11,572 bases of DNA from positions 1-11,572 of the forward strand of contig JABMQR010000263.1 of the NCBI GenBank assembly GCA_013202335.1. Reading direction: 5' to 3'. The notes beneath the pieces were generated by a model. The model searched no databases and was not told the DNA's origin. It worked only from the letters and a program-made list of their open reading frames with translations. Position numbers and translations under genes: made by a program. Numbering within the stretch: position 1 is the first letter of the stretch; each line of letters starts with the position of its first letter. Positions 1,431 through 11,572 of the stretch are shown in pieces. The DNA comes from Bacteroidota bacterium. GTDB lineage: Bacteria > Spirochaetota > Spirochaetia > JABMQR01.

Positions 1431-1446
1431 AATGGAGAACAGCAGA

Positions 1447-2505
1447 ATGAAACAAGAAACCATGACACCAAAAGAGCGATGGAAAGCAGTGCTAAACCGG
1501 AAACAGCCTGACAGAATTCCCGTTGACTGGTGGGGTACCGTAGAGGTAGAAAAGAAGGTAAAAGCTCATCTGGGGCTTGATGATATATGGGATGTCTATA
1601 AAAAACTCCACATAGATAAACTGATTAAAATTGAACCTGAATATGTTGGGCCTAAACTTGCTCAGGGAACCGACTGGTTCGGATGTAAATTTAAGGGTAT
1701 CCCGTATGGAAAAGGGGAGTACGAGGAGTGTGTATTTCATCCTCTGGCTCAGTATGAGACTATTGAAGAGATCGAAGCACATTATACCTGGCCTGATCCG
1801 GACTGGTTTGATTATTCGGGCATGACGGAAAAGTTGGTGGGAAAAGAGGAGTATCCTGCACAGGGTCCTCACTCGGAACCATTCTACTTTTATAAATATT
1901 TACGGGGTGATGAACAGGCCTTTATGGACCTGATTCTAAATCCTGAATTAACAGAATATATCCTTGAAAAGATTTTTTCTTATGAACACACAAGAATACA
2001 ACGGACGCTTGAGGCCGTTCCCGGGAAACTGACATGCGGTATGGTTGCTGAGGATTTAGGGGCTCAGAGCTCATTAATGTATTCGCTTGCACATATCGAA
2101 AAATTCTTTTTCCCTAGAATGAAAAAGATGATGAACCTGCTGCACCAGGATAACATCTTTGTAATGACACATAGTGATGGAGCTGTCAGGGATGCGATTC
2201 CCGGTTTGATTAATTGCGGTATGGATGTACTTAATCCTGTCCAGTGGCGCTGTACCGGAATGGAACGTGAGGGGCTAAAGAGAGATTTTGGTAATCAGAT
2301 TATTTTTTATGGTGGAGTGGATAATCAGATAACGCTGCCGTTCGGTTCCGTCGCGGATGTTCGAAAGGAAGTGATAGACAATATTAACATACTGGGGGAT
2401 GGAGGTGGATATATCCTGGCACCATGCCATAATTTACAATCCGTTTCACCGGTTGAGAATATTATTACCCTGTTTGAAACAGCTTATCACGAAGGTTGGA
2501 ACTGA
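1447..2505 (+). CDS. Uroporphyrinogen decarboxylase (URO-D) family protein, non-haem type
   Basis: This 352-residue protein has the layout of the URO-D-like superfamily found in carbohydrate and methyl-transfer clusters. It shows the N-terminal MTPKERWKAVLNRKQPDRIP (residues 6-25), the central AEDLGAQSSLMYS (201-213), THSDGAVRDAIPGLI (241-255), MDVLNPVQ (259-266), YGGVDNQITLPFG (288-300) and the C-terminal GGGYILAPCHNLQSVSPVENI (319-339). Members include true haem-pathway decarboxylases and corrinoid-linked methyltransferases such as MtaA/CmuA. The invariant haem-enzyme N-terminal signature is not evident, so haem synthesis is unlikely. His242, Cys327 and His328 could bind a metal, but that is speculative. 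I chose ATG 1447 over ATG 1432 because GGAG at 1434-1437 sits nine bases ahead of it, whereas the earlier ATG has no RBS. It converges on the repressor gene with only 10 bp between, and no terminator is visible there. A decayed paralogue lies just upstream. Confidence 0.85.
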   Translation: MKQETMTPKERWKAVLNRKQPDRIPVDWWGTVEVEKKVKAHLGLDDIWDVYKKLHIDKLIKIEPEYVGPKLAQGTDWFGCKFKGIPYGKGEYEECVFHPLAQYETIEEIEAHYTWPDPDWFDYSGMTEKLVGKEEYPAQGPHSEPFYFYKYLRGDEQAFMDLILNPELTEYILEKIFSYEHTRIQRTLEAVPGKLTCGMVAEDLGAQSSLMYSLAHIEKFFFPRMKKMMNLLHQDNIFVMTHSDGAVRDAIPGLINCGMDVLNPVQWRCTGMEREGLKRDFGNQIIFYGGVDNQITLPFGSVADVRKEVIDNINILGDGGGYILAPCHNLQSVSPVENIITLFETAYHEGWN

Positions 2506-2515
2506 GATTCAGAAT

Positions 2516-3307
2516 TTACTCAAAGGTAAGTACTTCAATATCTGCTTCCTCATACTGTTTCCTGAGCTTATCTGAAATGGTATCGGTTATAAGCAGATCG
2601 ATTTCATCCGGGGTTGCAAAATTCATAAACGAATTCATTTCCAGCTTGGTGTGGTCACAAATAATGATAACTTTTGAGGCAATACGTATCATCTGTTTTT
2701 TCAAGGCAGCCTGAGAGAGATCGGGTGTGCTGGCACCTTTTTCGATAGAGAATGAATTTGCCCCCATCATTGCTTTATCAACAGATAATGATTCAAGAAG
2801 CGGGGAAGCCCCATGATCAATAGTACAGTGAAATCCTTTTCGCAAAAGTCCACCGATTAACAGCGTGTCGACACTCTCCGTTCGTTCCAGGATTGCAGCA
2901 ATATTAAGGTCATTTGTGACTACGGTAATGTTTTTTTTGCTTCCAAGAAGCTTTGCCAGCTCAGTCGTTGTGGTTCCGGTATCCAGGATAATAGTATCTC
3001 CATCATCAATACATTCCAATGCAACTTTTGCTGCAGAAACTTTGCTTTGCGTGTTCTTGGCAATTCTACTGTCAATAATGGGTTCATGCCCTGTATGGGA
3101 TTTCTTTATTGCCCCGCCATGTGTTCTGGTTATCAAGCCGGATTCATCAAGATCCCTGAGATCGTTACGGATAGTAGCGCTGGAAACATCAAAATTCTGG
3201 CACAGTTCAGGAACGGTTACGCGTCCAACATTATTAATATACTCAACAAGCTTCCTTTTGCGCTCTTCGGCAAACAGTACTTTTTCACCTGTATTATCCT
3301 GTCCCAT
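2516..3307 (-). CDS. DeoR-family transcriptional repressor
   Basis: This 263-residue protein has an N-terminal winged helix-turn-helix (about 12-68). It carries the DeoR signature VSSATIRNDLRDLDESGLI (41-59) followed by the wing TRTHGGA (60-66). The C-terminal sensor domain belongs to the ISOCOT/sugar-phosphate-binding fold, with LDTGTTTTELAKLL (108-121), VVTNDLNIA (129-137), GANSFSIEKG (182-191) and ICDHTKLE (216-223). These proteins usually repress neighbouring sugar genes and release DNA when a phosphorylated sugar intermediate binds. The start ATG is preceded by AAAGGAT at suitable spacing. It is transcribed divergently from the Gfo/Idh gene, which implies control of that gene and of itself. 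The nearby word TTTATTGTAAAC is a candidate binding site. Confidence 0.93.
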   Translation of the reverse strand: MGQDNTGEKVLFAEERKRKLVEYINNVGRVTVPELCQNFDVSSATIRNDLRDLDESGLITRTHGGAIKKSHTGHEPIIDSRIAKNTQSKVSAAKVALECIDDGDTIILDTGTTTTELAKLLGSKKNITVVTNDLNIAAILERTESVDTLLIGGLLRKGFHCTIDHGASPLLESLSVDKAMMGANSFSIEKGASTPDLSQAALKKQMIRIASKVIIICDHTKLEMNSFMNFATPDEIDLLITDTISDKLRKQYEEADIEVLTFE

Positions 3308-3548: not shown

Positions 3549-4571
3549 ATGGCAAAATATCGTGCTGGTGTAGTAGGAATCGGAGATGTGGCAAAGGAAT
3601 ATATTAAATCACTAAATGCAAATCCACTGGCTGAAGTAACCGCTGTAGTAGGAAGAGATCAGGAAAAAACAAAAAAGCGAGTTGCTGAATGGGGACTAAC
3701 CTGTGAAGTGCTCTTTTCCATAGACGAGCTGCTGAGCATGGATGAAATTGACATCATTGTAATTACCAGTCCTCATCACCTGCATAACCAGGCGGCAATT
3801 GCTGCGGCAGAAGCCGGTAAACATATTATATGTGAAAAACCGATCGGAATGAACTTTGCTGAGCTCTGTGCATTGCGTGACAAGGTGCATGAAAGCTCTG
3901 TAATTTTCCAAAGTGGACTGGTGCTTCGCTGGAATCCCTTTATACAGAACCTAAAAAATCTTGTAGAAAAAAAGCAGTTAGGCAGTCTTTTTTATATGGA
4001 AGCTGATTACTGTCACGAACTGGGACCCTGGTGGAATGGATTTTCATGGGGTGGACAGAACAAAAGCGGCGGCCCTTCAGCCTCATTGGTTGCCGGAATT
4101 CATGCGGTAGACCTTATTCGCCATATTTGCGGTGAAGTTGAGGAAGTTCACGCATACGGCACCTGGGGACATCGGGATGATTTTGGATATCCTCCAACCT
4201 ATGCAGCTGTGTTGAAGTTTGCAAATGGAGCGGTAGGAAAAACCAGCTGCAGTTTTGCGATTGAATCACCCTATGATATGAATTTCATACTTCATGGTTC
4301 TAAAGGCTCTGTCAGGAATGAGAAGTTTTTCATTAAGGATCTTTTCCCCGGACAAACAGGCTGGCAGAATTTTGAGACCGTTATGCCGGACAGCGGCGCT
4401 GTTTCTCATCATCCATTCAAATATCTGGTTGATGATTTTCTCGAGGCTCTGGATAAGGATCAGCAGCCTATGCTTAACATTGATGAAATGTTCAAAACTC
4501 ATGAGCTTTGTATGGCCATAGATCTCTCAATCGAAACCGGGAAACCGGTAAAACTGCCTCTGAAACTCTAG
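3549..4571 (+). CDS. Gfo/Idh/MocA-family NAD(P)-dependent oxidoreductase
   Basis: This 340-residue protein has the usual length for the family and its two-domain plan. The N-terminal Rossmann fold has GVVGIGDVA (7-15) for dinucleotide binding, followed by DIIVITSPHHLHN (68-80) and the hallmark CEKPIG (95-100), whose Lys97 is the conserved catalytic/cofactor residue. The C-terminal GFO/IDH domain has SGGPSASLVAGIHAVDLIRH (173-192), equivalent to the common GGG…GxHxxD motif. His185 and Asp188 are the expected active-site residues. Relatives oxidise or reduce hydroxyls of sugars, inositols and their glycosides in the cytoplasm, and the precise substrate cannot be read from sequence. Start choice is secure: AGGAGG ends six bases before ATG. 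It sits divergent to the repressor and alone in its transcription unit, ending at the hairpin at 4598-4622. Trp161, Trp162, Trp167 in WWNGFSWGGQ suggest an aromatic sugar-stacking loop (inference). Confidence 0.93.
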   Translation: MAKYRAGVVGIGDVAKEYIKSLNANPLAEVTAVVGRDQEKTKKRVAEWGLTCEVLFSIDELLSMDEIDIIVITSPHHLHNQAAIAAAEAGKHIICEKPIGMNFAELCALRDKVHESSVIFQSGLVLRWNPFIQNLKNLVEKKQLGSLFYMEADYCHELGPWWNGFSWGGQNKSGGPSASLVAGIHAVDLIRHICGEVEEVHAYGTWGHRDDFGYPPTYAAVLKFANGAVGKTSCSFAIESPYDMNFILHGSKGSVRNEKFFIKDLFPGQTGWQNFETVMPDSGAVSHHPFKYLVDDFLEALDKDQQPMLNIDEMFKTHELCMAIDLSIETGKPVKLPLKL

Positions 4572-4658: not shown

Positions 4659-6782
4659 TTAGCGCAAAAGCTGAGCCGCTATATCAATAGGCACCTCATT
4701 AATACAGGTATTGTTTGGATTTACCAGCTGATGTTCATCTAACAGAAGACCGGCGGTAGCGCCCTCACGAACTGCAGCATGGAGATTCCTCGGAGCCACT
4801 GCATCTCCCACATTGACGACTGTTAGACCCGCCTCTTTCATGGTGTTCAGCATTTCGATATTAGGCGCGGTCCAGCAGGTTACCACATTGTCACAGGCGA
4901 TAGTATTTCTCTTAAGCTGTTTATTCAGCGTAACAACTTCTCCTTCGTGTATTTCGATGATACGTGTTTTTTCAATCACCGTAACCGGAAATTTAAATGG
5001 TTTGGAAGTCAGAGCCTCCGCATCTGTCTGGTTAAACCGCTTCCGCAAAACATACATGTGGATAACTTCAACTGTTGAGGCGAACTCATTTCTGTCGGTT
5101 ACAATTGTTACCTCTTTACCGATAGCGGCAAGATGTGCTGCCGTATCAGCTGCTGCATAGTGATCGCCCCAGACGATTACCTTTGACCCTTCAAGTTTCC
5201 TCGGTTTTCTACCATCCTGCGGATGATATTCACAAGCTGTTTTCGGACAGGCCATTACTTCTTCAAAAGGAATTACTGTCTCAGCCAGGCCGCTTACTGC
5301 AGGAACGAAAGATTTTGCTCCGGTTGCATTAATTACCAGATCAAAGGATTTTAGCTCCTCAATTGATGGAACAGTGGAGAGTTTTACCTCAATCTCCAGT
5401 TCTGCGACCTGATTTCTTATCCAATCCGTATACCATTTCATCTTTATCTCTTTACCGGGGGTTGAGCAGCAGCCCAATATTGCCCCGCCAAGTTCGGATG
5501 ATTTCTCAAAAATGGTGGCTTTGTGACCGCGTTCCACAGCAACACGCGCAGCTTCCATTCCAGCCGGTCCGCCGCCGACAACTGCCAGATTCAACGGTTT
5601 CTCTGTACGCTTCATCTCATAGAAATCCTCATTTCCACAAGCCGGATTGATCGCACAGGCGATCTCTTTTTTTGCCATCATCGATTCCTGCCAGCAGCCG
5701 GTAAGACAGGATATACATTTTCTGATAGAATCAACTTTTCCGTATTTAGCCTTTATTGGCCAGAATGGATCTGCAAGTATTTGTCTTGCAAGTCCAACCA
5801 TATCAGTTTTGCCTTCAGCCAGAATCTTCTCACAATATTCCGGGTTTCTTAATGTATGACTGTTAATTACGGGAATGCTGACAGCTTTTTTAATCTCTTC
5901 AGAAGCGTACATAGTCCAGCCTTCCGGATAGTACATGGGATCAAAACCGGCACCCGGACTCTCTTGAATACATTGGCTGAGGTCCAGGGCGGCAACTCCC
6001 GCCTCCTCAAATAATTTGGCAACCTGGACAGATTCAGGCAGCTCCCGACCTCCGGGTACCCATTCATCAACTGAGTAACGAACAAGGACAGGAAAATCGA
6101 CACCGCATTTTCCCTGAATAGCACTTATCAGAGCCAGAGGGAAACGCATTCGGTTCTCTAAACTTCCACCAAACCTGTCTGTCCTTCTGTTCAGGTAGGG
6201 ACTCATGAACTGGGATATAAGATATCCATGGGCTGCATGAAGCTCAACGGCATCAAATCCGGCCTGTTTTACCCGCCAGGCTGCCTCTGAAAACTCATCA
6301 ACCAACGCTACAACATCATCCGTTGATAATACCTGCATGGTTTTTTTTGCTTCATCCGCATTTGCATATACAATCGTCCTGCTCTGCGACCAGGGAAGTT
6401 TAAGTGCCTGATCGGTAGCGGTAAGTTTTCCTTCTCGAGGCAGGGAAGCCTGTCTTCCGGGGTATTGCAGCTGAACGGCACACTTTGCTCCGTACTTGTG
6501 CATACTGTCAGCCAACCGGGCAAAACCGGGAATATAGTTATCATCATCTATTACAAGACACGAAACTGTAGAACGACCGGTTTTAGCATTTGGGGATGTG
6601 GCACCGACAATGATTAATCCGGTACCACCCTTGGCTACAAGGCTGTGATGATAAATATCTCTGTCACTCACAGAACCATCCGCATTTGATGAACTGACAT
6701 CAGTTGGGACATGACAAATCCTGTTAGGAACTTCCATATTACCGATCATAATGGGTGTAAATAAGTGTTTAAATTCAGGCAT
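4659..6782 (-). CDS. Old Yellow Enzyme/FadH-TMADH-type flavin and 4Fe-4S oxidoreductase
   Basis: This 707-residue protein matches the 2,4-dienoyl-CoA reductase / trimethylamine dehydrogenase / BaiCD-BaiH family in length and order. An N-terminal TIM-barrel FMN domain (about 1-345) contains LHAAHGYLISQFMSPYLNRR (181-200), with Tyr187 in the position of the FadH catalytic Tyr, and TDRFGGSLENR (201-211). A 4Fe-4S cluster motif C356-x2-C359-x3-C363-x12-C376 follows. The FAD-binding domain starts at LAVVGGGPAGMEAA (399-412), and the closing FAD motif is VVNVGDAVAP (655-664). The second nucleotide-binding fold, VIVWGDHYAAADTA (535-548), lacks the GxGxxG loop expected for NAD(P)H binding, which recalls TMADH rather than FadH. 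I chose ATG 6782 because AAGGAGG (6795-6789) precedes it and MPEFKHLFTP is the family N-terminus. An upstream ATG at 6845 adds 21 unrelated residues across the promoter. It is read divergently from the transporter operon. The likely role is reduction or oxidation of an unsaturated, keto or amine intermediate. Confidence 0.93.
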   Translation of the reverse strand: MPEFKHLFTPIMIGNMEVPNRICHVPTDVSSSNADGSVSDRDIYHHSLVAKGGTGLIIVGATSPNAKTGRSTVSCLVIDDDNYIPGFARLADSMHKYGAKCAVQLQYPGRQASLPREGKLTATDQALKLPWSQSRTIVYANADEAKKTMQVLSTDDVVALVDEFSEAAWRVKQAGFDAVELHAAHGYLISQFMSPYLNRRTDRFGGSLENRMRFPLALISAIQGKCGVDFPVLVRYSVDEWVPGGRELPESVQVAKLFEEAGVAALDLSQCIQESPGAGFDPMYYPEGWTMYASEEIKKAVSIPVINSHTLRNPEYCEKILAEGKTDMVGLARQILADPFWPIKAKYGKVDSIRKCISCLTGCWQESMMAKKEIACAINPACGNEDFYEMKRTEKPLNLAVVGGGPAGMEAARVAVERGHKATIFEKSSELGGAILGCCSTPGKEIKMKWYTDWIRNQVAELEIEVKLSTVPSIEELKSFDLVINATGAKSFVPAVSGLAETVIPFEEVMACPKTACEYHPQDGRKPRKLEGSKVIVWGDHYAAADTAAHLAAIGKEVTIVTDRNEFASTVEVIHMYVLRKRFNQTDAEALTSKPFKFPVTVIEKTRIIEIHEGEVVTLNKQLKRNTIACDNVVTCWTAPNIEMLNTMKEAGLTVVNVGDAVAPRNLHAAVREGATAGLLLDEHQLVNPNNTCINEVPIDIAAQLLR

Positions 6783-6813
6783 AGTTCTCCTCCTTTTATT
6801 ATCCAAGAGCTTT

Positions 6814-6822
6814 ATTGTAACA
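6814..6822 (-). promoter_or_regulatory. Extended -10 promoter of the flavoenzyme gene
   Basis: The minus strand shows TGT-TACAAT (6822-6814), an extended -10 element. Only a weak -35 (TGTCGT, 6841-6836, 16-base spacer) is seen. The start point near 6807 gives a short leader holding AAGGAGG. A second -10-like GATAAT closer to the gene is too near the RBS to be useful. The -10 is embedded in the shared word TTTATTGTAAC (6811-6821). Confidence 0.45.
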
Positions 6823-6898
6823 TACAAATTTTGAAACGACAGCATATAATAACATATTTTACATATACAACAACAACCAATTTAAAAAAACAAATAAA

Positions 6899-6962: not shown

Positions 6963-6990
6963 CTAAAAAACTTGCATGGAGGTGTGTATT

Positions 6991-8007
6991 GTGAAAAAAA
7001 TTCTATTGCTTTTAGTATGCTTGATGATGGTAGGAACATCAGTGTTTGCAGCAGCAGAAGCTGAAGCAGAGAAGAAACTTACTGTAGGGTATGTCATTCC
7101 TTACGAAATTGGCTGGTTTGCAGCTTTTGTTCAGGGATTTGAACTTGTTGCGGAATCTGAAGGTGTGAAGACAACCAGACTGCATCATAACTACAATCCC
7201 GCTGAAGAGAATACTGCGGTACAGAACCTGATTACTTTGGGTGTTGACGGTATCAATGTAACATCAGCAAGTCCGGAAAGTGCAGAATACTCCTGTAGAC
7301 TGGCAAATGAAGCCGGAATTCCAATTCAGGTAACAGAGAGCGGTGTTGCAGAAGGGAAAGGAAAACCCTTTGCAGACATAGACTTTAACTGGAATGAAAT
7401 CTACAAATATATTGCACAGAATATCAGAAATGATGTTGACGGCGATCTCTCAATAATTAACCTTCAGGGATTCCTGGGAACTCCTCCTGTTATGTTGGGA
7501 ATCAGCGGATTAACTGAAGAAGTTGGCAAACTTGCCGGTATGAAACTGGCTACCGATGTTCAGGATGGACAGTATGCAACAGCTCCATCACTTGATATTA
7601 CAAAAGCTCTTGTACAGTCAGGTCTTGAATTCAACGTAGCAATTGGTTCATGTCAGGAAATTACAGAAGGTATCGTTCAGGGGCTGAAAGAAGAAAATGT
7701 TCCCAGAGAAGATGTAACTATTATATCTGTAAACGGCGGACCCATGGATGTAGAGAACCTGAAAAAAGGTAACATCGACTATGTTCTCAGCCAGTCACCT
7801 GCAGTACACGGTATGATCTGTGCGCTTAACCTTATCTCTTACCTGAAGGGCGAAACATATCAGAAAAAAACTTATTCACCAGTAATCTGGGTTAACCAGG
7901 AGACATGGGAATCAGATCTGATACCTTGGGACGTAGATAATAGCTGGTTACCAGTTGTTGAAGAATTTGTTAAGACAGGAAATTACAAACCAGAACTACG
8001 TATGTAA
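6991..8007 (+). CDS. Periplasmic sugar-binding protein of a ribose-type ABC transporter
   Basis: This 338-residue exported protein has a signal peptide (KK then a hydrophobic run LLLLVCLMMVG, cleavage likely after SVFA at residue 20, no lipobox Cys). The mature part begins AAEAEAEKKLTVGYVIPYE. It belongs to the type 1 periplasmic-binding fold (Peripla_BP_4, RbsB/XylF-like). NLITLGVDGINVTSASPES (about 70-88) is the typical hinge-side segment where a bound sugar is described in the family, followed by NEAGIPIQVTE. The start is GTG 6991, because GGAGGT (6978-6983) sits seven bases ahead. The ATG at 6976 overlaps that Shine-Dalgarno and is unlikely to be used. It is the first gene of the operon and is followed by a strong hairpin, which fits the usual need for more binding protein than membrane components. 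The ligand is unknown; several Trp/Tyr residues suit ring stacking. Confidence 0.93.
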   Translation: MKKILLLLVCLMMVGTSVFAAAEAEAEKKLTVGYVIPYEIGWFAAFVQGFELVAESEGVKTTRLHHNYNPAEENTAVQNLITLGVDGINVTSASPESAEYSCRLANEAGIPIQVTESGVAEGKGKPFADIDFNWNEIYKYIAQNIRNDVDGDLSIINLQGFLGTPPVMLGISGLTEEVGKLAGMKLATDVQDGQYATAPSLDITKALVQSGLEFNVAIGSCQEITEGIVQGLKEENVPREDVTIISVNGGPMDVENLKKGNIDYVLSQSPAVHGMICALNLISYLKGETYQKKTYSPVIWVNQETWESDLIPWDVDNSWLPVVEEFVKTGNYKPELRM

Positions 8008-8083: not shown

Positions 8084-9583
8084 TTGGAACAGGATATCAT
8101 ACTTCAAGCCAGAGGCGTTTATAAAGGATATCCAGGGGTTCAGGCACTGGATGATGTGGATTTTGAGCTTCGTCATGGTGAAATTCAGGCTCTTGTAGGA
8201 CAGAACGGAGCTGGAAAATCGACATTTATCGAGATACTCGCCGGATCATTATCTCCGGATAAAGGAGAGATTGAAATTGGTGGATCAGTCTATAGCCATT
8301 TAGACCCCTCAGTCTCAATTGAGCTTGGCATTCAGACAGTACACCAGGAAAATCAATTGGTGGAGGAACTCTCTGTTGCTGAGAATATTTTTCTGTATGA
8401 TCTGCCGAAAACCCGGTTTGGATTTGTGAATCTCCCAACCTGTGTTGAATCTGCTAATGCTTTACTGAATCAGCTGGAAATTGACATTCCCTCTGATAAA
8501 AAGCTTTCAGATCTTACATTTGTTGAAAAAAAACTTGTGAGCATTGCAAAGGCTTTTTCCCGACAGGCAAAAATACTTATTTTAGACGAGCCTACAGCTT
8601 CCCTTGATAAAAAAGGCAGGGGAATTCTATTTGATATAGTGAGAAAATCTACCCAGAAGGGGCTGAGTGTCATCTATATTTCGCATCATTTGAGTGAGAT
8701 TTTTGAAATTTGCGATCGGGTGACTATTTTTAAGGATGGTCTTAAAGTTGACACCTCTGAGGTTCGAAAAACAGAGATGGCCTCTATCGTTCAGAAGATG
8801 ATTGGAAAATCCAACAGTTCTTTAAATCAGCACACCCGGGAAAACACATTCAAACCGGAGTCAAAGACACTCGATATTATCGACTACTCCCGCGGGGATG
8901 TGGTAGATCATGTCTCTTTCAGTGTGAGAGAGGGTGAGGTTTTTGGACTGGGCGGTCTTGTCGGAGCAGGAAGGACTGAACTTGCACGAATGATCTTTGG
9001 ACTGGATAAAAAAGAGTCCGGCAAGCTTATCTTTTTTGGGGAAGAGATAACCCCCAGCAGTCCGTCGGATGCAATTAAAAAAGGTATTGGATATCTCACA
9101 GAGGATAGGAAGGACGACGGTCTTTTTCTTGTTCGACCAATTTATGAGAATATAGGAACTGTTCTCCTTACAAAATTGAAAAGATTTTTTATGGATTTAC
9201 CTAAAGAACGCAAGAATACGACAGGTATATCGGATCAGCTATCAGTAAAAACACCGTCAATAAAACAGTTGGTAATTAACCTGAGCGGCGGAAATCAACA
9301 GAAAGTTGTTCTTGCAAAATGGTTGTACGCTGAGTCGGAAATTTTGATTTTTGATGAACCTACGGTGGGAATTGATGTTGGTAGTAAAAGTGAAATCTAC
9401 CAGCTTATGAACGATCTCGCCAAACAGGGGAAGATTATCATTGTTATATCATCTGATACTCTGGAATTAATCTCTATCTGCGATAGGGTTGGTGTTATGC
9501 GGTATGGAAAACTAGCTGAGATTCTTGAAGGAGATCAGATCACCGAGGAAAATATCCTGCGTCTATCTATGGGCGTTGAATAA
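8084..9583 (+). CDS. Two-domain sugar ABC transporter ATPase (RbsA/MglA type)
   Basis: This 499-residue cytoplasmic protein has two fused nucleotide-binding domains, the normal length for the family. Domain 1 has Walker A GQNGAGKST (39-47), Walker B LILDEPTASL (165-174) and the H-loop ISHHL (199-203). Its signature is degenerate (LTFVEKKLVSIAKAF, 144-158), as is usual for this half. Domain 2 has the family's variant Walker A GGLVGAGRTEL (290-300), a full signature LSGGNQQK (400-407), Walker B LIFDEPTVGID (421-431), and Ser instead of His in the switch (ISSDTLEL). GYLTEDRKDDG (336-346) is a hallmark of sugar importers. It starts at TTG 8084, since AGGAG (8071-8075) lies eight bases ahead, no nearer ATG exists, and the family's N-terminal 'LQARGVYKGYPGV' begins directly after. 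The weak start codon may lower its level relative to the binding protein. The permease gene follows after 11 bases. Confidence 0.95.
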   Translation: MEQDIILQARGVYKGYPGVQALDDVDFELRHGEIQALVGQNGAGKSTFIEILAGSLSPDKGEIEIGGSVYSHLDPSVSIELGIQTVHQENQLVEELSVAENIFLYDLPKTRFGFVNLPTCVESANALLNQLEIDIPSDKKLSDLTFVEKKLVSIAKAFSRQAKILILDEPTASLDKKGRGILFDIVRKSTQKGLSVIYISHHLSEIFEICDRVTIFKDGLKVDTSEVRKTEMASIVQKMIGKSNSSLNQHTRENTFKPESKTLDIIDYSRGDVVDHVSFSVREGEVFGLGGLVGAGRTELARMIFGLDKKESGKLIFFGEEITPSSPSDAIKKGIGYLTEDRKDDGLFLVRPIYENIGTVLLTKLKRFFMDLPKERKNTTGISDQLSVKTPSIKQLVINLSGGNQQKVVLAKWLYAESEILIFDEPTVGIDVGSKSEIYQLMNDLAKQGKIIIVISSDTLELISICDRVGVMRYGKLAEILEGDQITEENILRLSMGVE

Positions 9584-9594
9584 GAGGGAATGCT

Positions 9595-10608
9595 ATGAGG
9601 GAGAAAATTGCTGCACTGTTTACTAAGGATGCAAAGAACAAGAAAAGTATGAATCAGTCACTTCTGCTGATTATTCTTATCGTTATTTTGTGCATTATTG
9701 CCACATCTGTTAACCCCAGGTTTATGAGGATCTCAAACATCATCAACATTTTCCAGCAGGTATCAGTACTGGGTATTATAGCCTGCGGAGTCGGGATGCT
9801 CTTAGTCTCCGGTGATATCGATATCTCTGTTGGTGCCCAGGTATCACTTATCGGCATCATCCTTGCCATGATTATTGAGAAAGTCGGAGGAATTGCTCCT
9901 GGTGAAGCAAATGCATGGCTGGCATCATGGGCTATTCCTATGGCGATAGTTGCTTCCTTTGCGGTAGGAGCTCTGCTTGGTCTTATAAATGGAATCATTG
10001 TCATAAAATCGGGTGTTACTTCCTTTATAATAACTCTCGGATTCAGCACCATCTACAAAGGTGTTGCCCTGTTGATAAGCGGCGGAGCCTCCTATATGCT
10101 ATTTGGCCGATTTGAAACTCTTGGAAGGGGTCGTGTGTTCGGAGTTATTCCTGTTGCGATATTCTTTTTTCTGGGTGTCGTAATTCTTGCCCATATAATA
10201 TTGAAATATACGCGTTACGGCAGATTTCTCTATGCCCTTGGTGGAAACAAGAAGGCTGCCTTTGTTTCAGGTATTAATACCAAACGAGTAACCCTAAAAG
10301 CGTATGTTATTGTTGGGTTACTAAATGGCCTTGCTGCTCTGATTCTGATCTCCCGTGTAGGTTCTGCGCTGGCAACTACCGGAGAACCCTATTCCCTGGA
10401 TGCTCTGGCAGCCATAATTGTTGGTGGAGTTATTCTGACAGGTGGAAAAGGAAGTGCGGTCAATATTTTTCTTGGGGTCCTACTTATTGGACTGGTGGGA
10501 AATGCTCTGGTTATTATGAATGTAAATCCCTATCTGCGGGGTATCGTAATTGGTATTATCATAATTGCTGCAGTAACGATCAGTAATGCATCAAGCGGCA
10601 AAAAATAG
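9595..10608 (+). CDS. Sugar ABC transporter permease (RbsC type, BPD_transp_2)
   Basis: This 337-residue inner-membrane protein is highly hydrophobic, with about nine or ten membrane segments: 21-38, 50-73, 80-95, 112-135, 141-162, 183-203, 234-254, 266-284, 288-308 and 314-330. Family marks are GVGMLLVSGDIDISVGAQVS (65-84), TLGFSTIYKGVALLISGG (147-164) and the coupling-loop region YSLDALAAIIVGGVIL then TGGKGSAVNIFLGVLL (266-297), which contacts the ATPase. Its short Lys-rich N-terminus is cytoplasmic. The ATG is preceded by AGAGGGA and lies 11 bases after the ATPase stop, so the two are likely translationally linked. A single permease gene implies a homodimer, as in the ribose transporter. 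Confidence 0.95.
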   Translation: MREKIAALFTKDAKNKKSMNQSLLLIILIVILCIIATSVNPRFMRISNIINIFQQVSVLGIIACGVGMLLVSGDIDISVGAQVSLIGIILAMIIEKVGGIAPGEANAWLASWAIPMAIVASFAVGALLGLINGIIVIKSGVTSFIITLGFSTIYKGVALLISGGASYMLFGRFETLGRGRVFGVIPVAIFFFLGVVILAHIILKYTRYGRFLYALGGNKKAAFVSGINTKRVTLKAYVIVGLLNGLAALILISRVGSALATTGEPYSLDALAAIIVGGVILTGGKGSAVNIFLGVLLIGLVGNALVIMNVNPYLRGIVIGIIIIAAVTISNASSGKK

Positions 10609-10618
10609 GGAGTAGATT

Positions 10619-11572
10619 ATGAAACAGATAGACCTTCTATCCACTCTGGATGGATCACTTTTTGATGGGTTTTACCCAAAAGAACTCGATCTTGCAAAAC
10701 TCGATAACTGCTGCAGCAGACGTCCTGAAGAGGTTTTTGAGAAAGAACCCTGGTGGCATAAAGATTTCAAACCCGTTCAGGCCGATACACTTGAAGATTT
10801 CAATACACTTATGGGTCATGATATTGCTCTGCAGATTAAGCTTGCACGGGACGAGGGACGTGATATTATTGTCATTCTCTCAGCAGGACCTATGGGTATG
10901 TACCGCTGGGCGGCAGAATTTCTTACCTCCTGGAATGTAGACTGCAGCCATGTTCATGGTTTCAATATGGATGAGTGGTCAGATTCTGAAGGAGACACAC
11001 TCCCCTCATCTAACCCCGGTGCATTCAGGAATGCAATGGAAAATGCTTTCTACGGGCGGCTGGGAAATCTTACTGTTCCTGAAACGCAGCGTCATTTTGC
11101 CACAAAAGATGAGCTTCCCCGCTATCCGGAGATGATCGCGGATTTGAAGAGTAAGAATGCAAAATTTTTACTGATTTACGGTATTGGGTGGATATTTCAC
11201 ATTGCCTTCTGGGAACCGCACTTTGCTGCAGATTACAAATCTATGGATGAATGGAAACAGGCTACCCACAGGATGGCTGCAAAACTTCATCCTATGACCA
11301 TAATCCAGAACTCTATAACAAGTTTCAAAGGTAAAATAACCTCTGTGCCTGCAAGGGCAAATACTATAGGCCCGGGAATCTTTCTGCAGGCAGATTATAC
11401 GATAGGGGGAGTAGATGGATATCTCCCGGCCAGAAACATGATGTACCAAAGCATGGCTTTATGGGCAACGTTGAAATACGGTCCTGACATGTGGGTACCT
11501 TCAAGTATTATGACGCAGTATCCGGGAAAACTCTTTTTTATTAAGGACCTTGCCGGACCGCTTGATCCTGAA
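10619..11572 (+). CDS. Atypical NagB/glucosamine-6-phosphate isomerase-like protein, cut by right edge
   Basis: At least 318 codons remain open to the window end. After an N-terminal region of about 80 residues with no NagB equivalent, the protein follows the NagB/ISOCOT fold. It shows IVILSAGPMGMYRWAAEFL (84-102), VHGFNMDEW (112-120), IYGIGWIFHIAFWEPHFA (186-203) and ARANTIGPGIFLQADYTIGG (246-264, with one residue less in parts), the last equivalent to the lid/TVGVGTLLDA segment. Compared with E. coli NagB, the Asp72 equivalent (Asp118), His143 (His194) and Glu148 (Glu199) are kept. Asp141 is replaced by Ile192, Gly142 by Phe193, and the phosphate loop TGGTP is shortened to SAGP. It is therefore unlikely to be an ordinary glucosamine-6-phosphate deaminase. 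GGGAG precedes ATG by six bases, and the gap to the permease is 10 bases, so it is the fourth gene of the transporter operon. It probably acts on the imported compound in the cytoplasm. Confidence 0.8.
   Translation, partial: MKQIDLLSTLDGSLFDGFYPKELDLAKLDNCCSRRPEEVFEKEPWWHKDFKPVQADTLEDFNTLMGHDIALQIKLARDEGRDIIVILSAGPMGMYRWAAEFLTSWNVDCSHVHGFNMDEWSDSEGDTLPSSNPGAFRNAMENAFYGRLGNLTVPETQRHFATKDELPRYPEMIADLKSKNAKFLLIYGIGWIFHIAFWEPHFAADYKSMDEWKQATHRMAAKLHPMTIIQNSITSFKGKITSVPARANTIGPGIFLQADYTIGGVDGYLPARNMMYQSMALWATLKYGPDMWVPSSIMTQYPGKLFFIKDLAGPLDPE

Follow-up and report, generated by a model that had tools for sequence, protein, structure and literature searches.

A NagB-like protein encoded behind an RbsABC-type sugar importer keeps core catalytic residues and appears to have lost the phosphate grip of NagB

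The window, i.e., the whole stretch of 11,572 nucleotides that was analyzed (contig JABMQR010000263.1, assembly GCA_013202335.1), probably stems from an uncultured spirochaete and ends within the gene of interest, which encodes a NagB-like protein (Q; 10619..11572, + strand, 318 aa, truncated at the 3' end by the window border). Upstream, on the same strand, lie the genes for a periplasmic sugar-binding protein of the RbsB type (6976..8007, + strand; PF13407, 84.2 bits), a sugar ABC importer ATPase of the RbsA/AraG type with two ABC domains (8084..9583, + strand; PF00005 in two stretches, 171.2 bits) and an importer permease of the RbsC type (9595..10608, + strand; PF02653, 110.5 bits). These four genes are separated by gaps of 76, 11 and 10 bp, the start of Q being located 10 bp past the stop codon of the permease, which agrees with the linkage to a sugar importer proposed in a first-pass annotation of this DNA. 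Divergent from the importer, an OYE-type flavin/NAD oxidoreductase is encoded (4659..6845, - strand; PF00724, 228 bits; cluster 10). The remaining genes comprise a Gfo/Idh/MocA-type sugar dehydrogenase (3549..4571, + strand; PF01408, 84.3 bits; cluster 1), a DeoR-type regulator (2516..3307, - strand; PF00455, 150.5 bits, and PF08220, 67.2 bits) and a URO-D family protein (1432..2505, + strand; PF01208, 48.5 bits; cluster 8).

The reading frame of Q comprises 318 codons and is still open at the window end. Since most of the 119 listed database relatives have lengths of 316-323 aa, only few C-terminal residues are missing. A Pfam search with Q gave no family at an E-value of 0.001. The NCBIfam matches were three NagB models only, of which the best, nagB (TIGR00502, an equivalog model), scored 42.7 bits and remained below its cut-off of 236.9 bits. 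The PDB was searched by sequence at an E-value of 0.01, which gave nine matches, all NagB and with 26-41 bits, and no solved structure within the short-loop branch described below. In the predicted model, a NagB-type alpha/beta fold extends across residues 50-317 and places Q in the NagB/6-phosphogluconolactonase fold superfamily, the fold match to 6-phosphogluconolactonase being somewhat weaker than that to NagB. The first residue of 1dea_A and 2bkv_B is matched to residue 50 of the model; the N-terminal extension, which is absent from E. coli NagB and had been estimated at about 80 residues, therefore measures about 49 (residues 1-49, 10619..10765, + strand).

Residue counts were taken from 200 proteins, namely the window protein, 80 genome loci (the best 80 of 527) and 119 listed database proteins; P0115 (256 aa) had been dropped from the initial 201. 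Alignment A1 contained 89 of the 201 proteins, the others being left out by hand against near-copies and not by a strict rule. A further alignment of 48 rows comprised 15 window-family rows, 17 more distant relatives, 12 NagB and four rows (L088-L091) which we take to be AgaI-like deaminases.

In E. coli NagB, Asp72, His143 and Glu148 are catalytic and Asp141 is the ring-opening Asp. Two of the fold markers named in the first-pass annotation, FNMDE at residues 115-119 and HIAFWEP at residues 194-200, are present in Q. The first lies in FNMDEW (residues 115-120; 10961..10978, + strand; motif conservation 1.00), where Asp118 corresponds to Asp72. The second lies in GIGWIFHIAFWEP (residues 188-200; 11180..11218, + strand), where His194 and Glu199 correspond to His143 and Glu148, and where Ile192 and Phe193 were confirmed at the positions of Asp141 and Gly142. 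Asp118, His194 and Glu199 are each invariant (200/200 proteins), as are Arg218 and Asn231. The Asp141 position, residue 192, is Val in 161 proteins, Ile in 13, Met in 11, Ala in 11 and Cys in 4, and never Asp. The changes at the active site run through the whole window family. The description of this site as rebuilt holds insofar as residues are changed; because the equivalents of Asp72, His143 and Glu148 are retained, the site is changed but not wholly rebuilt, and with these equivalents invariant the different mechanism that had been considered is not needed. Asn is found at the Asp141 position in L086 (298 bits against the cut-off of 236.9), in L114 and in the AgaI-like rows L088-L091, all of which are otherwise NagB- or AgaI-like, so that Asp141 alone is a weak marker. 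A new mechanism on the ground of Asp141 loss alone was ruled out for the same reason.

The NagB phosphate loop Thr41-Gly42-Gly43-Thr44-Pro45 is replaced in Q by the short loop Ser88-Ala89-Gly90-Pro91 (10880..10891, + strand). The SAGP motif reported earlier is indeed present at residues 88-91, and the shortening relative to TGGTP amounts to two residues, the gap being placed on E. coli Gly43-Thr44 by two hhalign profile comparisons and by MAFFT. Gly90 and Pro91 occur in 200/200 proteins, and in the 48-row alignment 32/32 short-loop rows have a loop shortened by two or more residues relative to NagB. The AgaI-like rows are also gapped at the loop in the 48-row MAFFT alignment and ungapped in another alignment, which makes their loop length uncertain.

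Phosphate is bound in E. coli NagB by Arg172 and Lys208. The Arg172 position is occupied by Ile233 within QNSITSFK (residues 230-237; 11306..11329, + strand), an assignment anchored on the shared Asn (Asn231 of Q, Asn170 of NagB). Across the 200 proteins this position is Ile in 180, Leu in 12, Val in 5 and Gln, Phe and Met in one each; in the 48-row alignment, Arg is found in 12/12 NagB, 0/15 window-family and 6/17 distant rows, the 15 window-family rows all having a hydrophobic residue there. An insertion lies ahead of the Lys208 position (DGYLPARNMMYQ, residues 266-277; 11414..11449, + strand), which is aligned to Gln277, a residue invariant in 200/200 proteins. Lys stands in this column in 16/16 NagB and AgaI-like rows, in 0/15 window-family rows (Gln in 15/15) and in 3/17 distant rows. 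In the accessible text of a simulation study of S. mutans NagB (PMC8369159), phosphate is held by Lys194, Thr38 and Ser37 and by a water-bridged Arg127. By alignment offset these correspond to E. coli Lys208, Thr44, Gly43 and position 140, and the equivalents of Ser37 and Thr38 as named there fall inside the loop deletion of Q. The window has Trp191 at the Arg127 position, but 99/200 relatives have Arg there. The accessible parts of PMC9812318, PMC4008608 and PMC4281351 gave no usable phosphate contacts. Arg272, which is conserved in 199/200 proteins, could bind an acidic group. As judged from these alignments, Q keeps the core catalytic residues and appears to have lost the phosphate grip, so that it probably uses non-phosphorylated sugars.

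In a tree of the 48 rows, the 32 short-loop rows were separate with a support of 100/100 and a branch of 1.7, and the window family formed a single clade inside this branch; the tree was rooted on the AgaI-like rows for drawing only, and the program warned of long branches meeting. Compared with NagB (TIGR00502; E. coli 1dea, 2bkv), Q has a loop shorter by two residues, replacements of Arg172, Lys208 and Asp141 and about 49 extra N-terminal residues, and it scores far below the family cut-off. Q and the AgaI-like rows belong to one superfamily, and Asp141 is changed in the latter as well (Asn). Unlike Q, the AgaI-like rows keep Lys at the Lys208 position (4/4), and they stand across a 100/99 branch, so Q is not AgaI-like. 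Three of the 17 distant rows, L135-L137, keep both Lys208 and Asp141 and have Gln at the Glu148 position. They form a distinct short-loop subgroup, adjoined by a PfkB-like gene (identified by Pfam for L135, by eye for L136 and L137).

The closest genome relatives of Q among the best 80 of 527 stretches are 94, 89 and 82% identical and come from MAGs labelled as spirochaetes; the labels within these 80 include Spirochaetes, Atribacteria, Planctomycetota, Hydrogenedentes, Paenibacillus and others. A family profile matched in 46 of 296 genomes of the relative's phylum, mostly weakly, many of the weak matches among the loci fetched reading as ordinary NagB, and in 24 of 299 genomes of the phylum of the Paenibacillus relative. 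This short-loop branch of amino-sugar deaminase-like enzymes is widespread and little described; in the open-access literature, judged by titles and the beginnings of abstracts, no description of the family or of a deaminase beside PIG-L was found. Regarding mobile elements, viral contigs gave no match, and one weak match was to an unannotated phage record; the five plasmid matches to Q all had <31% identity, none had >80% coverage, and no mobile-gene sign was seen. The closest relative's genome additionally encodes a canonical NagB (410 bits), and on this ground the idea that Q serves as the NagB of its genome was rejected.

Gene neighborhoods were analyzed at 81 loci, i.e., the window and the best 80 among 527 stretches that had been confirmed, with genes called by a home-made caller, and the counts therefore describe the closest members. 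A de-N-acetylase gene lies no more than 1.5 kb from Q and on its strand at 38 of these 81 loci, compared to 3 of 304 control genes lying >4 kb from Q at the same loci; the 43 loci without one include some short contigs. Among the 67 well-flanked loci of this set (≥1 kb of DNA on either side), the deacetylase is of the PIG-L type in 21, NagA-like in 13 and both in one, and the two partners seem to replace each other. In the subfamily of the window (16 loci plus the window), a NagA-like gene is present in 14/17, while outside of it the partner is PIG-L; it is missing in L013 and L014, and the window ends short of that place. The usual gene order of the subfamily is binding protein, ATPase, permease, Q, NagA-like gene, dehydrogenase. 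The first-pass annotation had raised a general link to RbsA/RbsC genes. Permease and binding-protein clusters occur at 17 and 15 of the 81 best loci, respectively, mainly in the subfamily of the window, and a universal RbsABC link is thereby ruled out. De-N-acetylases are commoner across this set and found in more phyla. Of the 22 more distant short-loop loci (L122-L138 and L167-L171), ten have a deacetylase gene in the vicinity, namely L125, L127, L128 (four genes away), L129, L131, L133, L167, L169, L170 and L171 (one gene between). The call for L131 rests on Pfam and alignment, and L130 and L132 were judged by eye.

Further genes recur in the surroundings of Q. Dehydrogenases of the Gfo/Idh/MocA cluster 1 are present at 46 of the 81 loci (best 80 of 527 plus the window), OYE cluster 10 at seven of them (window, L004, L008, L009, L010, L011, L015) and URO-D cluster 8 at ten (window, L004, L008, L011, L013, L014, L016, L044, L050, L068). 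The presence of the OYE-type reductase, the URO-D protein and the dehydrogenase close to the operon suggests that an unusual sugar is used, or more than one. Genes which we take to be DegT-aminotransferase-like (cluster 9 and relatives) lie near Q in L018, L019, L021, L025, L027, L029, L037, L053 and L057 and near its distant relatives in L128, L169 and L170; a presumably ceramidase-like gene, likewise assigned by eye, is found in L037, L128, L168, L169 and L170. Cluster 15, a small and presumably thiamine-binding-type protein with a length of about 98 aa, is encoded directly upstream of Q in L051, L062 and L067 and about 0.8 kb upstream in L043.

The NagA-like partner retains the catalytic motifs of E. 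coli NagA. The Asn of the HLYNAM motif is changed to Asp in 12 of the 13 covered partner rows (L010 keeps Asn), and the Arg of the TGR motif is changed to Met in 13/13 rows when anchored on the following Pro-Gly. According to the accessible text of PMC6016474, Asn212 and the Ala213 amide bind phosphate in M. smegmatis NagA, whose invariant Arg220 points away while a non-conserved neighboring Arg of the other subunit binds phosphate; changing the invariant Arg abolished the activity of M. marinum NagA, and neither enzyme used plain GlcNAc. The pairing of these residues with HLYNAM and TGR, made on the basis of that text, is our own assignment, and because the conserved Arg is reported there to point away from the ligand in M. 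smegmatis NagA, the argument from the TGR Arg is indirect. At the level of its sequence, the NagA-like partner of the window subfamily is changed at the NagA phosphate contacts. In L125 and L131, the NagA-like partner still has the Asn, which restricts the argument to the subfamily of the window instead of the whole branch. The proposal that Q may act on a non-phosphorylated substrate gains support from the loss of Lys208 and Arg172 (0/15 each), the deletion of the Ser37 and Thr38 equivalents and the changed partner.

The 489 genes called up to 4 kb from Q at the 81 loci (best 80 of 527 plus the window) were scanned with kinase profiles, which were shallow and built from few sequences each (PFK from one), so kinases may have been missed. 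Matches were obtained for galactokinase-like genes in L003 and L008, a PfkB-like gene in L024 and ROK-type genes in L025 and L060, the last two belonging to a cluster in which HTH-ROK regulators also occur. In L014, a further galactokinase-like gene lies 6.1 kb from Q (GHMP genes at L003:6713-8116, L008:13054-14535 and L014:2536-3906). Such a gene is thus found near Q in 3/17 subfamily operons, inside the operon once (L003, between Q and the NagA-like gene), where it passes the TIGR00131 cut-off (265.7 against 226.65 bits). The earlier statement that no kinase is visible stands for the families listed in the nine window proteins, but does not extend to these three related operons. Neighbors in the wider branch include kinase-family genes of the FGGY (L123, L131), PfkB (L135, L138) and PFK (L125) types. 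In L131, genes for an FGGY kinase and a DeoC/LacD-type aldolase follow beyond the short-loop gene on its strand, separated from it by a single gene of opposite orientation, a layout compatible with phosphorylation after the isomerase step. In L125, neighbors from the PFK kinase family and the class II fructose-bisphosphate aldolase family hint at a phosphorylated (6-phosphate) product there. Together with L135-L137, L125 suggests that parts of this wider branch make use of phosphate.

On balance, we favor with modest confidence that Q is a NagB-fold deaminating aldose-ketose isomerase acting on a non-phosphorylated 2-amino sugar, after import and deacetylation. The fold, the kept and lost residues, the branch and the gene neighbors were computed, while we infer the chemistry, the order of steps and the substrate. 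The importer would bring in an N-acetylated sugar in unphosphorylated form, and the acetyl group would then be removed by the deacetylase, which is NagA-like and encoded just downstream of Q in close relatives; the operon of the window presumably continues with such a gene beyond the window end. Q would open the sugar ring by His194 and Glu199, and Asp118 would move a proton between C2 and C1, with ammonia being released and a ketose left. Any phosphorylation would come after this step.

Alternatively, Q might isomerize or eliminate a non-phosphorylated sugar without deamination, e.g., a keto sugar from the Gfo/Idh/MocA dehydrogenase, whose gene shares the strand of Q and lies within 1.5 kb of it at 27 of the 67 well-flanked loci (from the best 80 of 527 plus the window). 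TIM-barrel isomerase-like genes at 15 of the 81 best loci are in line with this, and as normal ring opening would not be needed, the complete lack of Asp at the Asp141 position among the 200 proteins would be explained. However, the ring-opening residues His194 and Glu199 are kept in 200/200, and the pairing with deacetylases at 38 of the 81 best loci points to a free-amine substrate, which makes this alternative unlikely. A binding of acidic substrates other than a 6-phosphate (a sugar 1-phosphate or an amino uronic or aldonic acid) would make use of Arg272 or Arg218, conserved in 199/200 and 200/200 proteins, and would match the galactokinase-like genes in 3/17 related operons, that of L003 lying above the TIGR00131 cut-off. 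We consider it rather improbable, given that no such gene was found at the other 14/17 loci, several of them on short contigs, and that the NagA-like partner has Asp for the phosphate-binding Asn in 12/13 rows. Least probable is that Q, despite a diverged pocket, remains an ordinary deaminase of glucosamine-6-phosphate (or galactosamine-6-phosphate), supplied by a kinase whose gene lies elsewhere. In its favor, the source names of the relatives, where given, mostly say glucosamine-6-phosphate deaminase or isomerase, and the NagA-like partner passes the NCBIfam NagA cut-off (245.3 against 225.65). Against it, Q fails the cut-off of NagB, the loop, Arg172 and Lys208 are all changed in 15/15 window-family rows, 6/8 searched genomes carrying Q have a NagB above cut-off, and no action of PIG-L deacetylases on 6-phosphates is known.

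As a deaminating isomerase for free amino sugars, Q would resemble the NagA-NagB pathway of GlcNAc utilization in that deacetylase and deaminase-like genes lie side by side in its subfamily. Unlike in that pathway, no PTS or GlcNAc kinase is found among the window genes, both enzymes are changed at phosphate contacts, and an RbsABC-type importer and a dehydrogenase are part of the operon. A further comparison is offered by the oxidative chitin pathway OngB-OngC-KdgK, in which, according to the accessible text of PMC9537276, a free N-acetylated sugar acid is deacetylated, deaminated and phosphorylated last. The order of steps described there is the one proposed for Q, with other enzyme families: OngC is compared with PLP enzymes, OngB is closest to D-aminoacylase, and NagB is named 0 times in that text.

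It is possible, and put forward tentatively, that much of this cross-phylum branch annotated as glucosamine-6-phosphate deaminase deaminates free amino sugars in the order import, deacetylation, deamination and, last, phosphorylation, beside the classical Nag pathway and often in the same genome. The enzyme name borne by the 6628 database proteins that match Q at E ≤ 0.001, true NagB possibly among them, may be misleading. If free amino sugars are indeed the substrates, the branch would represent a second bacterial amino-sugar route, for which activity without phosphate is predicted.
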